In this document: one piece after another, positions 6,087 through 35,053 of the stretch
Position numbering within the stretch: position 1 is the first letter of the stretch
Layout of the letters: every line of letters begins with the position of its first letter
Origin: Rhodospirillaceae bacterium
GTDB taxonomy: Bacteria; Pseudomonadota; Alphaproteobacteria; Thalassobaculales; Thalassobaculaceae
Assembly (NCBI GenBank): GCA_002709155.1
Contig: PAQA01000021.1
Coordinates: 22,525 to 69,884 of the forward strand
DNA length: 47,360 nt
Direction: 5' to 3'
Notes under the pieces: model-generated
What the model saw: only the letters and a program-made list of their open reading frames with translations
What the model was told of the DNA's origin: nothing
Database searches by the model: none
Translations under genes and position numbers: made by a program

Positions 6087-7280
6087 TTGACACAGAATGA
6101 ATTTAAAAATTTTGAGGAATACCTCATTGCGGTTCGCGAATTATCACAAAACGTTCTAAGGCCTGCCGAAAACCGCTTAACGCGCGAAAATGGTATACCT
6201 GACGATTTGACAGCAGCCCTTACAGATATCGGACTTTTTGGAATATCAATCCCAAAAGAGTTTGGTGGTTTTGGTTTTACTATGGAACAGCAGGTTCGTC
6301 TAACGTTCGAATTTTGCCAAGCCTCTTGTGTTTACAGATCACGATTCTCAACAACAATTGGTTTAACATCTCAGGCGATTCTGGATTTTGCCACCGAGGA
6401 ACAGAAGGACAGGTATTTACCGAAAATGGCATCGGGACAATGCACAGGAGCTTTTGCACTCACAGAGACAGAGGCGGGTTCTGACGCGAGTGCGTTGACC
6501 ACAACGGCCAAAAAGAATGGTAACAAAGGATGGCTTTTAAATGGTGAAAAGCGATACATAACTAACGCCCCACAAGCGGATGTATTTTTAGTTATGGCCA
6601 AAACTGAAGAAAACGCAGCAGGCTCGAGCGGGATTTCTGCTTTCTTGGTCGACGCAGATCAACCGGGAATAACAGTTGGCGAGCCTCCAAAGATGCTCGG
6701 TAATGAGGGTAGCCATGCGTGTTATGTCTGGTTTAATGACTGCCAAGTGCCGTTCGAAGCGCTAATTGGGGGCGTTGAAGGCCGCGGACTTAAAGCGGCT
6801 TTGCGAGGTATAAATCATGCGCGACTCCATGTTGCGGCAACTTGTGTTGGACAAGCTATTCGTTTAATTGACGAGATGACTTCATATGCCTCCAAACGGC
6901 AACAGTTTGGAAAATCAATTGGTGAATTTGGCCAAATACAGGCACTTCTAGCGGACAGCCAATCCGAGATGAGTGCTGGAAAAGCGCTTTGTCTAGATTG
7001 CGCCAAGAAATTTGACGAAGGGGCTGAAATACCATTCATCGATATAGCATCCGCAAAATTATTTTGCTCGGAAATGGTTTCTAGGGTCGCTGACCGTGCT
7101 GTTCAGGTAATGGGTGGACTGGGGTATATGGAAGACATGTCTGATGTTCCAAGATTATTCAGAGATGTAAGGCTTTTCAGAATTTTTGAAGGTGCTAGCC
7201 AGATACAACAAACCAATATAGCCAAGGCAATGTTGAAGAATACCCGTTCTCACTCCGCCACCTCGCCGATAAAACCATAA
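6087..7280 (+). CDS. Acyl-CoA dehydrogenase (ORF track start 5907; likely TTG start near 6087)
   Basis: GAFALTETEAGSDASALTTTAKKNGNKGWLLNGEKRYITNAPQADVFLV and QVMGGLGYMEDMSDVPRLFRDVRLFRIFEGASQIQQ are acyl-CoA dehydrogenase signatures; the upstream extension does not look like this family. Confidence 0.9.
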   Translation: MTQNEFKNFEEYLIAVRELSQNVLRPAENRLTRENGIPDDLTAALTDIGLFGISIPKEFGGFGFTMEQQVRLTFEFCQASCVYRSRFSTTIGLTSQAILDFATEEQKDRYLPKMASGQCTGAFALTETEAGSDASALTTTAKKNGNKGWLLNGEKRYITNAPQADVFLVMAKTEENAAGSSGISAFLVDADQPGITVGEPPKMLGNEGSHACYVWFNDCQVPFEALIGGVEGRGLKAALRGINHARLHVAATCVGQAIRLIDEMTSYASKRQQFGKSIGEFGQIQALLADSQSEMSAGKALCLDCAKKFDEGAEIPFIDIASAKLFCSEMVSRVADRAVQVMGGLGYMEDMSDVPRLFRDVRLFRIFEGASQIQQTNIAKAMLKNTRSHSATSPIKP

Positions 7281-11841: not shown

Positions 11842-12645
11842 ATGAAAATGCAAACGACACATGTGAATGGTATCGATGTCGCCTATCGTTGGGATGGAAA
11901 TAAAAACGGTCCTATAGTGATGATGGCGCACGCAATGGGAACCAGCAACGAGATATGGAACCGACAGATAGAAGCCCTCTCGGATCGCTATCATATTCTT
12001 CGGTATGATTGGCGAGGCCACGGAAAAACTTCAGCACCTCAAGGCCCATACACTCTGGATGAATTTGTGGATGACGCCGTAGGAACGATGAGTGCGCTAG
12101 AACTTGAGAAGGTACACTGGGTTGGTATCTCTACTGGAGGAATGATAGGTCAAGGTGTAGCAATTAAACACCCCGGTAGACTTAACTCCCTAACACTTTG
12201 TAATACAACCTCCCAAAGTAACCCTTGGTATCGAAATTGGGTCGCGGAGAGGCAAGCCGTCGTAAAGAAGTCCGGTATGGTTCCTGTATGGGACATGACA
12301 AAAAGACTTTGGTTTACGGATAAATTTGTCGAGGCCGAAAATGCTGACTATCATAAAATCAAAGACGTATTTATAGCTACTCCCGTTGAAGGATATCTTG
12401 GCGGAACTTCTGCAGTTGCTGACCTAAATTACCTAGACTCACTGGATCAGATAACAACAAATACCCGCATAATCGCCGCTGGAGATGACCCGGTCACTCC
12501 AATCCAAAGATCAGAAGAAATGAATGAACGGATCAAGAACTCAAAATTATTTATTATAGACGGCCAACGGCATTTCTCGAATATAGAATCTCCGAGGGCG
12601 TTCAACAAATTATTACGAGATGGTTTGGATGAAATGGCCAGCTAA
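11842..12645 (+). CDS. Alpha/beta hydrolase (3-oxoadipate enol-lactonase-like)
   Basis: MAHAMGTSNEIW...YDWRGHGKT...WVGISTGGMIGQ...QRHFSNIESP. Confidence 0.85.
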   Translation: MKMQTTHVNGIDVAYRWDGNKNGPIVMMAHAMGTSNEIWNRQIEALSDRYHILRYDWRGHGKTSAPQGPYTLDEFVDDAVGTMSALELEKVHWVGISTGGMIGQGVAIKHPGRLNSLTLCNTTSQSNPWYRNWVAERQAVVKKSGMVPVWDMTKRLWFTDKFVEAENADYHKIKDVFIATPVEGYLGGTSAVADLNYLDSLDQITTNTRIIAAGDDPVTPIQRSEEMNERIKNSKLFIIDGQRHFSNIESPRAFNKLLRDGLDEMAS

Positions 12646-29801: not shown

Positions 29802-32800
29802 TTAATGAAAATCCCGGCTGTTAATACCTGAGCTTATTCTTTTCTCAGGTTTTTGTGGTCCAGAGGGTTCCGATAGATATCCTAAACTTTTTAGTTCGTC
29901 CGCATGAGCAGTCGGCTCTATAAAATTAGAATTGGTTATTTGACTTAATTTGTGGGTCAAATCTTCAAGTCGTTTAACTATTATATGCATTACTTCACCC
30001 TCACGCTGTAATTTGCCTTCAACCCCAAGAAATTTTGCACTCATTATTATATTTCTAAATCGTTCAAATTGACGAGACCAAACAACAAGATTCGCGACCC
30101 CAGTCTCATCTTCTATCGTTATAAATATTATACCTTTTGCAGTGCTTGGCCTCTGACGCACTAATACTAAGCCAGCCAAAAGAACTGGGCTGCCATCCGC
30201 TAAGTTTTCAAGAATTGAGATTGCTTTATAAGAACTCCCCGATAAATCTTCTCTTAAAAGGGCAAGTGGGTGTGATTTAAGAGATAGCTTAAGAGTATTA
30301 TAATCATCTATAACTTCCTCACCTATGCTTGCTATTGGCAATGAAACTTTGGGTTCAGAATGGGATGTTTTATTACTATAGGATTCTTTGTTATGACTGA
30401 ATAATGGAAGTCCACTATCCTTTTCTGTTAAAGAATCAAAAGTAGAATTGGCAATCCCTCTGACAGTCCAAAAAGCTTGTCGTCTTGAGAGCTCCATCGA
30501 CTGAAAAGCGTCCCCACGTGCAAGCAGTTCTAGAGTTGACGATTGAACACCAGCACGGCTGATCAATTCTCGTGGATGAGAATAACCACTCTTCCTATTC
30601 TGTTCTATTAACATTGCATCCTGTTGTCTTAACCCTTTAATTTGCCTTAATCCTAATCGAAGAGCTAATTCCCCATTACTCTGTGGTTCTAAATCACAGT
30701 CCCAGCCAATATAATTTACATCTGGATGTAAAACATTTACTCCATGATCACGAGCATCTCTTACAATCTGGGCGGGAGCGTAAAATCCCATAGGTTGAGA
30801 ATTCAGTAATGCGGCAGCAAATGCGGCAGGCATATGACACTTCATCCAACTGGACACATAGACTAGTAATGCAAAACTAGCCGCATGACTTTCAGGAAAA
30901 CCATAGTTACCAAAGCCCTCAATTTGTCTAAAGCATCGCTCTGCAAACTCGCGTGCATAACCGCGATTAACCATACCTTCGATCATCTTGGCGCCAAGAA
31001 CCCCAATCTTATCTGTCTTCCTAAACGTCGCCATCGCTCGACGTAATTGATCTGCCTCAGAAGGTGTGAATCCTGCTGCAATGATTGCAATTTTCATTGC
31101 CTGTTCTTGAAACAGCGGCACTCCTAATGTTTTTCCTAACACTTGGCGTAACTCTTCGGATGGTAATTCTACTGCTTCGTCACCATTACGGCGCCTGATA
31201 TATGGATGAACCATATCTCCTTGGATTGGCCCAGGACGCACAATAGCAACTTCAATAACCAGGTCATAAAAACACCGTGGGCGCAAACGTGGCAACATCG
31301 CCATTTGCGCACGACTTTCAAGCTGAAAAACGCCTAAAGAATCCCCTTTAGATAGCATATCGTAAACAGATGGGTCCTCAGATGGGACACTGGCAAGGTC
31401 TAAACACCGACCATAGTGGCGATGAATTAAATCAAACCCTTTATGAATACAACTCAACATCCCGAGTGCAAGCACGTCAACTTTAAGAATTCCAAGTGTA
31501 TCAAGGTCATTTTTATCCCACTCAATGACTGTACGTCCTTGCATTGCAGCATTTTCGATTGGAACCAACTCATCAAGGCGATCACGTGTTATTACAAAAC
31601 CGCCAACATGCTGCGATAGATGTCTAGGAAAACCTATTAGTTGATAGGAAAGTTTTAAGACAATTCGGAGTGTTCTGTCTTGTGGGTCAAGCCCTATTTC
31701 TATTAGTCTTTCGTCCTCAATTTCGTCAGAGCTACTAGAGCGTATTTGTCCAGTTAAAGCGACAATAACATTATCAGAAAGACCCATTGCCTTTCCAACT
31801 TCTCTTATCGCGCTTCTATAGCGAAATGTCACTACTGTTGCAGCTATCCCAGCACGCTCCCTACCATACGTTTTATAGATATGTTGAATTACTTCCTCAC
31901 GACGTTCATGTTCAAAATCAACATCGATATCTGGAGGTTCACCACGAGCCTCACTTATAAAACGCTCAAACAATATATCAGACTGGCTAGGATCAACCGC
32001 GGTAATACCAAGGCAGTAGCAAACAGCTGAATTAGCTGCAGAACCGCGTCCCTGACATAAAATATCACGGCTGCGTGCGAAGCGAACCATGTCATAAACA
32101 GTCAAAAAATAGGCCGCATATTTTAATTTATTTATAAGATTCAATTCATATTTTAATTGTTTTTTAACAACAGAAGGAATCCCATTTGGGTAATCTTTAA
32201 ATGGATAACGCTCATTTGCACCTTGCCATGTTTTAATCTCTAACTCTTGTTCTACAGTATTTCCAGATTGCGTTAATACATCTGGGTATTCATAATTTAA
32301 TTCGTCTAAAGTAAACTTGCATCTTTGGGCTATTTCAGCAGTATTGACTATAGATTCAGGATAATTTTGGAATAAACGAACCATTTCAGCGGGCGACTTC
32401 AGATAACGTTCTGAATTAGCCTCAAGGTCAAAACCAACTTGATTAATACTGCATTGTTTTCGTATACACGTCAGTACATCCTGAAGAGGCCGGCGTCCTG
32501 GATGATGGTAAAGAACGTCATTCAACGCAACCATCGGAACATCTGTTGCTTTTGATAAATTAAATAGTGCGTTCAATCTAGACTCATCGTCCCCTTTATA
32601 AATAACTGACGCACCAAGATATAACGACCCAGAAAATAAGCCTCTCCATTCAGTTAAATTTCTAGAAAACTTTGCCTCAACTTCCCGGTTTTTTTCCAAT
32701 AGCCTTGGATTATTGTAAAATCGGGGAGGTAGAACTATTAATATCTGGTCTAATGCATGCTCAATGATATCCTTAAACCATAACTTGCATCTCGATTTCT

Positions 32801-33113
32801 TAGTTCGTCTCTTGCCAATACTCAATAATCGAGTCAAACGGCTATAGGCACTCATATTAGTAGGAAAACATATTAGATCAACGCCATCTTCGGTCTCTAT
32901 ACGACTACCAATAATTCCTTTAATGCCTGAGTTTTTTGCCGCAATGTGGAAACGCACCACTCCAGCTAAAGTATGCTTGTCAGCAATTGAAATCGTTTGA
33001 TAACCAAGTGATATTGCTGTTTCAACTAACTCTTCTGGATGAGATCCACCTTCAAGGAAACTGAAATTACTAATGACACTGAGCTCAGTGTATAAATTTT
33101 TTAACTCACTCAT
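29802..33113 (-). CDS. dnaE2: Error-prone DNA polymerase DnaE2 (ORF track start 33152; likely start 33113)
   Basis: PHP domain YTELSVISNFSFLEGGSHPEELV; CQGRGSAANSAVCYCLGIT; PPDIDVDFEHERREEVIQHIYKTYGRERAG; GVFQLESRAQMAMLPRLRPRCFYDLVIEVAIVRPGPIQGDMVHPY. Confidence 0.97.
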   Translation of the reverse strand: MSELKNLYTELSVISNFSFLEGGSHPEELVETAISLGYQTISIADKHTLAGVVRFHIAAKNSGIKGIIGSRIETEDGVDLICFPTNMSAYSRLTRLLSIGKRRTKKSRCKLWFKDIIEHALDQILIVLPPRFYNNPRLLEKNREVEAKFSRNLTEWRGLFSGSLYLGASVIYKGDDESRLNALFNLSKATDVPMVALNDVLYHHPGRRPLQDVLTCIRKQCSINQVGFDLEANSERYLKSPAEMVRLFQNYPESIVNTAEIAQRCKFTLDELNYEYPDVLTQSGNTVEQELEIKTWQGANERYPFKDYPNGIPSVVKKQLKYELNLINKLKYAAYFLTVYDMVRFARSRDILCQGRGSAANSAVCYCLGITAVDPSQSDILFERFISEARGEPPDIDVDFEHERREEVIQHIYKTYGRERAGIAATVVTFRYRSAIREVGKAMGLSDNVIVALTGQIRSSSSDEIEDERLIEIGLDPQDRTLRIVLKLSYQLIGFPRHLSQHVGGFVITRDRLDELVPIENAAMQGRTVIEWDKNDLDTLGILKVDVLALGMLSCIHKGFDLIHRHYGRCLDLASVPSEDPSVYDMLSKGDSLGVFQLESRAQMAMLPRLRPRCFYDLVIEVAIVRPGPIQGDMVHPYIRRRNGDEAVELPSEELRQVLGKTLGVPLFQEQAMKIAIIAAGFTPSEADQLRRAMATFRKTDKIGVLGAKMIEGMVNRGYAREFAERCFRQIEGFGNYGFPESHAASFALLVYVSSWMKCHMPAAFAAALLNSQPMGFYAPAQIVRDARDHGVNVLHPDVNYIGWDCDLEPQSNGELALRLGLRQIKGLRQQDAMLIEQNRKSGYSHPRELISRAGVQSSTLELLARGDAFQSMELSRRQAFWTVRGIANSTFDSLTEKDSGLPLFSHNKESYSNKTSHSEPKVSLPIASIGEEVIDDYNTLKLSLKSHPLALLREDLSGSSYKAISILENLADGSPVLLAGLVLVRQRPSTAKGIIFITIEDETGVANLVVWSRQFERFRNIIMSAKFLGVEGKLQREGEVMHIIVKRLEDLTHKLSQITNSNFIEPTAHADELKSLGYLSEPSGPQKPEKRISSGINSRDFH

Positions 33114-33124
33114 AGAACTGGTAG

Positions 33125-34720
33125 TCACGAAAATAGTCCGTGTAAATACCAAGATGGTTTTTTCTTACTTTGTTTCATTCGTTCTTTAAACAACCAATAA
33201 CGGCGGCCATCGGAATCTTCAATTCTGAAATAATCGCGTGTCTTATAATAGTCTTCTACGAGCCACCATTCCGAGGCAATGCGTTCAGGTCCATTAGCAC
33301 GTCTGACATTAACTAAGGCATGCCGCCAACGGAATTGAAATGGCAGAGACCGGTTATACTCCGTCAATGGTTCTATATATTCCGGCCTTTGCAAAAGATA
33401 TAATGGACGGACAGTTAAAGTATTTTTAAATGAACTGCTCATCGATTGTGCTATTTTAGTATAATGTAAATTTGAAGAGACTGGAAAAGCAGTTTCAGAT
33501 CGTTCTGGAGAATAACTTTCCTTTAAAGATCTACGGATAACAGAACTAGAGCCAAACCTGTTTACCAACCTATCAACGAGTACTGATATTTCAGAATTGA
33601 TACAATCACTTTGAGATATCAAGTCTGATTGAAGCGGCTGATATATATCAACCTTGGTCGCTTCAAGTGTGATTACATCCACTCCGGAAACTAATATAAA
33701 ATCATCAAATTTTTCGAAAAATAATTTGGAAAATATTGATTTATCACGGCTGTCCTGGCTAGTGCTAACTATTAATTTATCAAGCTGTCCATCAATTCGA
33801 TAAAGTGAAACCTTTAATTCACGTGTACCTAGAGACCTAATTTCTAACTTCTTCATTAAGCGCTCAAGTAGGCATTCAAGCACTGCCAATATAGAACCCA
33901 TGGTAGATATTGGATCAGCTAGAACAAATCTGACTAAGTCTGGTGAATGACTTATCTGAGCTGATATAGGTTCAGCTTCCAATCCCAATGCCTGATCTAA
34001 TCGTCTCCTAACCTCAAGCCCAAACCTTGCTCTCAAGGGCGCTCTAGCGATTGGGAACAATGATTTAATTTGACGCAACCCAACCTTACTCAAATCCTCT
34101 ACCAATGATATAGGTAGCCTTAGTCCAATCAATGGTAAATCTGCGATAGCAGCTTGCTGAGCTCCTGGTTTAATAATCTGAGATGACAGCCCTCCAAAAT
34201 GTGCTAAAGCCCATGCAGCTCCTGGTGTATCGGCAATCACCCCGCGCGCAGTCAATCCAATGTGGCAGAGTCGATCAATAATACTATCAAGAAGTTTTTT
34301 CTCACCCCCAAAAAGATGCGCACATCCAGTGATATCTAACCAAAGTCCTCTTTCCCCTATTTCTTTTCTACTTTCATCAAACGCAACAAATGGCGTGTAT
34401 CGACCACACCAATTTGCTAGTGTAGTTAGTTCCATTTTATCTGTCAGTAGATCTATTTCAGCCACTAATAACTTCGAATGTAACGCTAATGCGTCACTAA
34501 GTGACCACCCGACCGCAATACCTAGTTTTTCTGATATGGGGCAAGTCGCGACAATCGTACGACGTCCATATTCTGTTCGCACAATTACCATAGCATTGGA
34601 AGATAACTTTTCAGCGTCTCGACCTCTTGTTATACGCCTAAGTCGATCCAGAGCTATGTTTGGAAACCAAAGATAAAGAATACGCCGGCCAGCATTTAAA
34701 TGTTCTCTTTTTGTTCTCAT
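33125..34720 (-). CDS. imuB: ImuB-type Y-family DNA polymerase-like protein
   Basis: RRILYLWFPNIALDRLRR N-terminus, WLDITGCAHLFGGEKKLLD, C-terminal EWWLVEDYYKTRDYFRIEDSDGRRYWLF...WYLHGLFS; immediately upstream of dnaE2. Confidence 0.95.
   Translation of the reverse strand: MRTKREHLNAGRRILYLWFPNIALDRLRRITRGRDAEKLSSNAMVIVRTEYGRRTIVATCPISEKLGIAVGWSLSDALALHSKLLVAEIDLLTDKMELTTLANWCGRYTPFVAFDESRKEIGERGLWLDITGCAHLFGGEKKLLDSIIDRLCHIGLTARGVIADTPGAAWALAHFGGLSSQIIKPGAQQAAIADLPLIGLRLPISLVEDLSKVGLRQIKSLFPIARAPLRARFGLEVRRRLDQALGLEAEPISAQISHSPDLVRFVLADPISTMGSILAVLECLLERLMKKLEIRSLGTRELKVSLYRIDGQLDKLIVSTSQDSRDKSIFSKLFFEKFDDFILVSGVDVITLEATKVDIYQPLQSDLISQSDCINSEISVLVDRLVNRFGSSSVIRRSLKESYSPERSETAFPVSSNLHYTKIAQSMSSSFKNTLTVRPLYLLQRPEYIEPLTEYNRSLPFQFRWRHALVNVRRANGPERIASEWWLVEDYYKTRDYFRIEDSDGRRYWLFKERMKQSKKKPSWYLHGLFS
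34702..34716. promoter_or_regulatory. Alphaproteobacterial LexA/SOS box GTTC-N7-GTTC inside the imuB 5' codons
   Basis: GTTCTCTTTTTGTTC (imuB strand GAACAAAAAGAGAAC); the only usable imuB ATG is 34718-34720. Confidence 0.8.
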
Positions 34721-35053
34721 TTAGAATAAATAACAATATTAGGGATAAATGAGAAGGTTTAATAATTTAATTAGAACAAATTTTTTAATTCCACCTATCA
34801 ACTAGTATTACTCGATCATATTATAAGAGTATGAACCTATTAGTTATTGTCATTTCACAAGTTTTCTCGGAAAAGATCTTCTAGCATTTCATCCCCTGTC
34901 CGTTTATCTGAATGCTCCTTAAAAGTTAATTACCCTTAATACTTTGTGCTGAATTCGAACGTATGAAAAAGATATTCTGTACGTACCAACAAACTGGTAT
35001 TAAGTTGAACAAAATGTTAACTCGTTCACTCAATGTCCGTGAGAGGAATAAAC

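Follow-up and report, generated by a model that had tools for sequence, protein, structure and literature searches.

A predicted LexA operator within the first codons of imuB, an apparently leaderless gene, in a small group of uncultured alphaproteobacteria

Can a LexA operator double as the first codons of the gene that it would control? The imuB locus of the window (the whole stretch of DNA that was analysed, 47,360 nucleotides) raises this question. An earlier note had read a GAAC-N7-GAAC box at imuB codons 2–7, and the box is indeed exact, running from 34716 to 34702 on the minus strand. The features of the locus are as follows.

33125–34720, minus strand: imuB, encoding a Y-family-like mutasome protein of 531 aa (Pfam DUF6504 at the cut-off, weak IMS, ImuB homology).
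29802–33152, minus strand: dnaE2 (imuC), encoding an error-prone DNA polymerase (NCBIfam PRK05672), the putative second gene of the transcript; its ORF overlaps the end of imuB.
34718–34720, minus strand: imuB start codon ATG, with the A at 34720 as the putative +1; the sole in-frame start before the conserved block, kept in 11 genomes.
34702–34716, minus strand: predicted LexA operator GAACAAAAAGAGAAC, an exact GAAC-N7-GAAC directly after the imuB RTGA in 11 genomes.
34727–34732, minus strand: putative −10 hexamer TATTTA (−12 to −7), at the promoter-score peak.
34750–34755, minus strand: putative −35 hexamer TTCTCA (−35 to −30), with a 17-nt spacer.

Homologues of ImuB were found in 51 of 81 genomes, and those of plasmid relatives are annotated 'DNA polymerase Y family protein' and adjoin imuA and dnaE2. 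The dnaE2 product scored 1375 bits against PRK05672 (cut-off 939); together with the ImuB homology, this gives the order imuB then dnaE2 expected of an ImuA-ImuB-DnaE2 mutasome. The listed dnaE2 ORF begins at a TTG overlapping the end of imuB (33111–33152), and an ATG at 33113 (MSELKNL), ~12 nt past the imuB stop, looks the likelier start. No imuA was found in the window genome, a 71%-complete metagenome-assembled genome; recA is also missing from this incomplete assembly. In all four congeners of the window genome, imuA lies at a separate locus.

The imuB ORF opens with ATG AGA ACA AAA AGA GAA CAT, and GAACAAAAAGAGAAC starts at the second base of codon 2 and ends at the first base of codon 7. 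The proposal that the operator sits at +1 needs adjustment: counting the A of the ATG as +1, the box lies just downstream of the start codon and spans +5 to +19. It agrees exactly with the alphaproteobacterial LexA consensus GAAC-N7-GAAC (GTTC-N7-GTTC). Matches to this consensus were not in excess of chance, either in the window (three seen, 1.43 expected; 21 of 100 shuffles reached three) or across the whole genome (47 versus 44 for the reversed control). Since the match alone is not significant, the case rests on comparison across genomes. The other two matches in the window (6294–6308 and 12526–12540) lie within long ORFs, have spacers unlike those of A-rich LexA boxes and are probably due to chance. 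The box GAACAAAACAAGAAC occurred 10 times in 58 genomes of the class, versus 0 for its reversed control. The window genome has a lexA gene (G000:C3:8466, above the TIGR00498 cut-off) with its own GAAC-N7-GAAC box upstream, GAACTAAAGTAGAAC.

A search of 80 relatives with ImuB returned 30 loci. Eleven genomes, distributed over four genera (g1, g7, g8 and g11) of the window's family, have an imuB that opens with RTGAGAACAAA. The second GAAC half-site follows at constant spacing, and the box is in frame with ImuB; it is thus conserved at the orthologous gene, with lexA in the genome. The start codon is ATG, but GTG in one of the 11. From the first codon to the conserved motif the distance is 36 or 33 nt, in frame in every case. 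The two 33-nt cases (G001 and G019) belong to different genera and therefore imply at least two independent changes in length by 3 nt, each of which preserved the frame. An alignment of imuB starts had been suggested to see if the box and the reading frame are jointly conserved. They are, across 11 genomes and four genera, with lengths that differ only by 3 nt. These genomes share one ancestor and represent only about four semi-independent lineages.

Within the family, the box-plus-motif pattern was present at 12 loci, namely the 11 and one leadered locus in g4, and it was found in none of 380 sampled genomes of the class outside the family. A plasmid-borne ImuB match from Sphingomonas psychrotolerans, which aligns from residue 1, carries no box at its imuB start. 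We considered whether ATGA might be a mere general flank of LexA boxes and rejected this, as the boxes at imuA mostly have TTA, ATA or AAA before GAAC, although elsewhere in the family RTGA is found ahead of a few boxes as well. One genome of the window's own genus (G003, 91% complete; L124) has lexA together with an imuA that bears a LexA box and no imuB match, possibly through loss of imuB or an assembly gap. We are convinced that conservation, rather than consensus, carries the case for GAACAAAAAGAGAAC as a predicted operator.

Where would transcription of such a gene begin? We aligned the 11 upstream regions ungapped on the imuB start codon (columns −45 to −1). Only T−34, T−12 and A−11 were invariant, and these are sigma-70 positions when the start codon is taken as +1. 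The −35 hexamer is weak in the window genome and reads TTCACA in G002 and G004 and TTGCRT in g7 and g11. We averaged a simple sigma-70 score, which has the drawback of E. coli matrices (textbook frequencies), over the 11 genomes at 90 offsets. It reached its maximum, 3.29, where the −10 element begins at −12; the runner-up scored 1.25, and the offsets had a mean of −3.88 (sd 2.28). Genus weighting gave 4.27 at −12 versus 1.04. In G010, G019, G011 and G014, this offset was the best of the 90 in the single sequence. The sole promoter offset common to all 11 genomes is that of a sigma-70-like promoter whose +1 falls on the start codon, which supports the earlier suggestion that transcription begins at or near the ATG. 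We infer the start itself from this promoter geometry only. The same note had pointed to a TATTCT just before the ATG. This hexamer is present (34728–34723), but as a −10 element it is too close to the ATG, since transcription would then begin within codon 2; the more probable −10 is TATTTA (34732–34727), four bases further upstream, whose position is conserved in relatives.

The translation signals are consistent with such a start. No Shine-Dalgarno sequence precedes imuB in any of the 11 genomes, as had been noted for the window, where the best duplex with the anti-Shine-Dalgarno sequence is +1.5 kcal/mol. By comparison, 19 of 32 scored ORFs in the window have a Shine-Dalgarno-like start (−5 kcal/mol or better), versus 26% of random draws. 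All 11 genes thus combine the absence of a Shine-Dalgarno sequence with a −10 element some 6 nt ahead of the start codon, as leaderless mRNAs do, and in every case little or no structure is predicted for the first 30 nt of the mRNA. We consider it likely that imuB-dnaE2 is transcribed as a leaderless mRNA from a sigma-70-type promoter, with a LexA operator at +5 to +19 in codons 2–7.

The strongest competing explanation accepts a real operator within the ORF and lets transcription start tens of bases upstream, giving a short leader that has no Shine-Dalgarno sequence, with LexA as a downstream block. In the window genome, the −12 offset scores 1.7 and ranks seventh of 90, and an unrelated match with its −10 at −58 scores 5.3; the match at −58 outscores −12 in G000, G002 and G004. 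However, it is absent from the other genera, only −12 scores high across all, and AT-rich sequence yields such matches by chance. A leadered start would also have to do without a Shine-Dalgarno sequence in 11 of 11 genomes. We regard an upstream start as unlikely.

Could translation instead begin at a non-ATG codon nearer the conserved block, with the box in a non-coding leader? Relatives with this layout exist. In g4, which is close to the group, imuB has a box and a Shine-Dalgarno-led leader, and in g2 the box lies upstream of a GGGAG-led start; a GTG is also present at −9 in three of the four g8 genomes. Yet the ATG at 34720–34718, directly after an in-frame TAA, is the single in-frame ATG, GTG or TTG upstream of the RRILYLWFP block, as the earlier note had it, and no alternative start is conserved across the 11 genomes. 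The frame between box and gene was kept despite the 3-nt changes, whereas in the leadered g2 genes box and start are 46, 47 or 48 nt apart and are in frame no more often than out of it, which implies no frame constraint. An alternative translation start is therefore very improbable.

A leaderless imuB with an operator in codons 2–7 raises the question of whether the DNA or the peptide is under selection. In the GC-rich genera g7 and g11, the codons of the box are otherwise hardly used by imuB: elsewhere in the gene, AGA accounts for 2/64, 0/41 and 0/58 and AAA for 0/4, 0/1 and 0/7 in the GC-rich members, and the product of the synonymous frequencies of the box codons is 10^-4.0 to 10^-5.6. The residues vary (KR, KQ, NK, KH) where the operator spacer is free to vary, and ImuB homologues without a box at their start also lack the RTKxE N-terminus. 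That the RTKxE peptide is the selected feature, with the LexA-box resemblance a by-product or chance, would fit the lack of GAAC-N7-GAAC enrichment noted above, but we dismiss it as next to impossible, because the codons are fixed despite plentiful synonyms in GC-rich genomes, the peptide varies at the operator's free positions and the N-terminus is missing from homologues that lack the box there. Since the box in GC-rich members uses codons that are rare in the gene, the operator sequence appears to dictate the N-terminal residues RTK[RQ]E[HQ] and not the reverse, in line with the constraint that had been proposed.

Taken together, these data suggest the following course of events. Transcription of imuB-dnaE2 would start from a sigma-70-type promoter, with the A at 34720 as its first base. 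LexA, when bound at +5 to +19, would keep RNA polymerase from opening or escaping the promoter. Upon DNA damage, self-cleavage of LexA would remove the block, and ribosomes would then translate the imuB mRNA directly from the 5′ end, with no Shine-Dalgarno sequence. LexA binding, repression and induction at GAACAAAAAGAGAAC are what we infer from the sequence. CA repeats after the start codon have been reported to enhance leaderless translation (PMC9031893). We tentatively raise a further possibility, which we hold to be rather doubtful: one 15-bp sequence may have three roles, as LexA operator in DNA, as an unstructured A/C-rich downstream enhancer of leaderless translation in RNA and as the ImuB N-terminus in protein. 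If true, the same bases would tune the mutasome at both levels, repression and translation.

How might this arrangement have arisen? On the ImuB tree, a single branch (support 92/88; 94% of bootstrap trees) sets the 11-genome group apart, and the in-ORF box has a single origin. In g1, g4, g7, g8 and g9, imuA is on a different contig from imuB, is leadered and has its own box, which abuts the −10 element (L110–L128); in g2, imuA and imuB are neighbours, each with a box. A plausible path would begin with a split of the cassette, after which imuB acquired a LexA promoter of its own; once the leader was lost, operator and reading frame became fused. Related genera with a leadered imuB form a natural before-and-after series.

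Two other imu loci show related geometries. At imuB of g9 (L013 and L014), an imperfect box, GAACAAATCATGATC, lies in the spacer of TTGACG-N17-CATGAT-N6-ATG (read by eye); this imuB may be leaderless too, with the box elsewhere, in the promoter spacer. At imuA of g6 (L012 621–635; L016 636–650) and g3 (L131, G025, minus strand), the LexA box (GAACAAA..CATGAAC) contains the ATG, which is in frame with ImuA. This is an independent overlap of LexA box and start codon in the same regulon, and these imuA genes may be near-leaderless.

The same 15 bases seem to be both regulatory switch and coding sequence in this group, a conserved and testable case of a transcription-factor site that overprints coding sequence. 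Because the predicted mRNA has no leader, operator, start codon and N-terminal residues would have to evolve as one unit. Such operators can be missed by operator scans limited to upstream regions and by start-site annotation that is blind to leaderless genes.

In Caulobacter, LexA represses an imuA-imuB-dnaE2 operon through the consensus GTTCN7GTTC (PMC12700426). The locus described here shares the operator consensus (on the other strand), the imuB and dnaE2 genes and the repressor family, and the LexA gene is present. In Caulobacter and most relatives, however, the box is upstream of imuA, whereas here it lies within imuB codons 2–7 and imuB is the predicted first gene of a separate transcript. 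A review describes imu cassettes that are split and carry separate SOS boxes (PMC3901139). The separation of imuA from imuB-dnaE2 in congeners and in sister genera, where each of the two has a box, resembles these, but no operator within a coding start is described there. Leaderless translation is normal among alphaproteobacteria: Caulobacter has 375 leaderless mRNAs, with a translation efficiency about equal to that of led ones (PMC4117421), and lexA of M. tuberculosis, itself an SOS gene, has a leaderless mRNA (PMC2897130). As in our prediction, transcription of these genes starts at the start codon, which was measured there; these two papers are not known to report a LexA operator within the first codons. 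In S. venezuelae, dnaE2 has an intragenic LexA site (PMC9380542), so that LexA binds within a damage-regulated mutasome ORF, as is predicted here. The definition used in that paper places intragenic sites >100 bp inside the gene, and no link to leaderless genes is stated. Our search of the open-access literature turned up no leaderless gene whose opening codons are described as containing a LexA box. LexA control of imuABC, split cassettes, leaderless SOS genes and intragenic LexA sites are separately known; what appears new is their combination, an operator conserved as codons 2–7 of a probably leaderless gene, which would be a variant of LexA repression.
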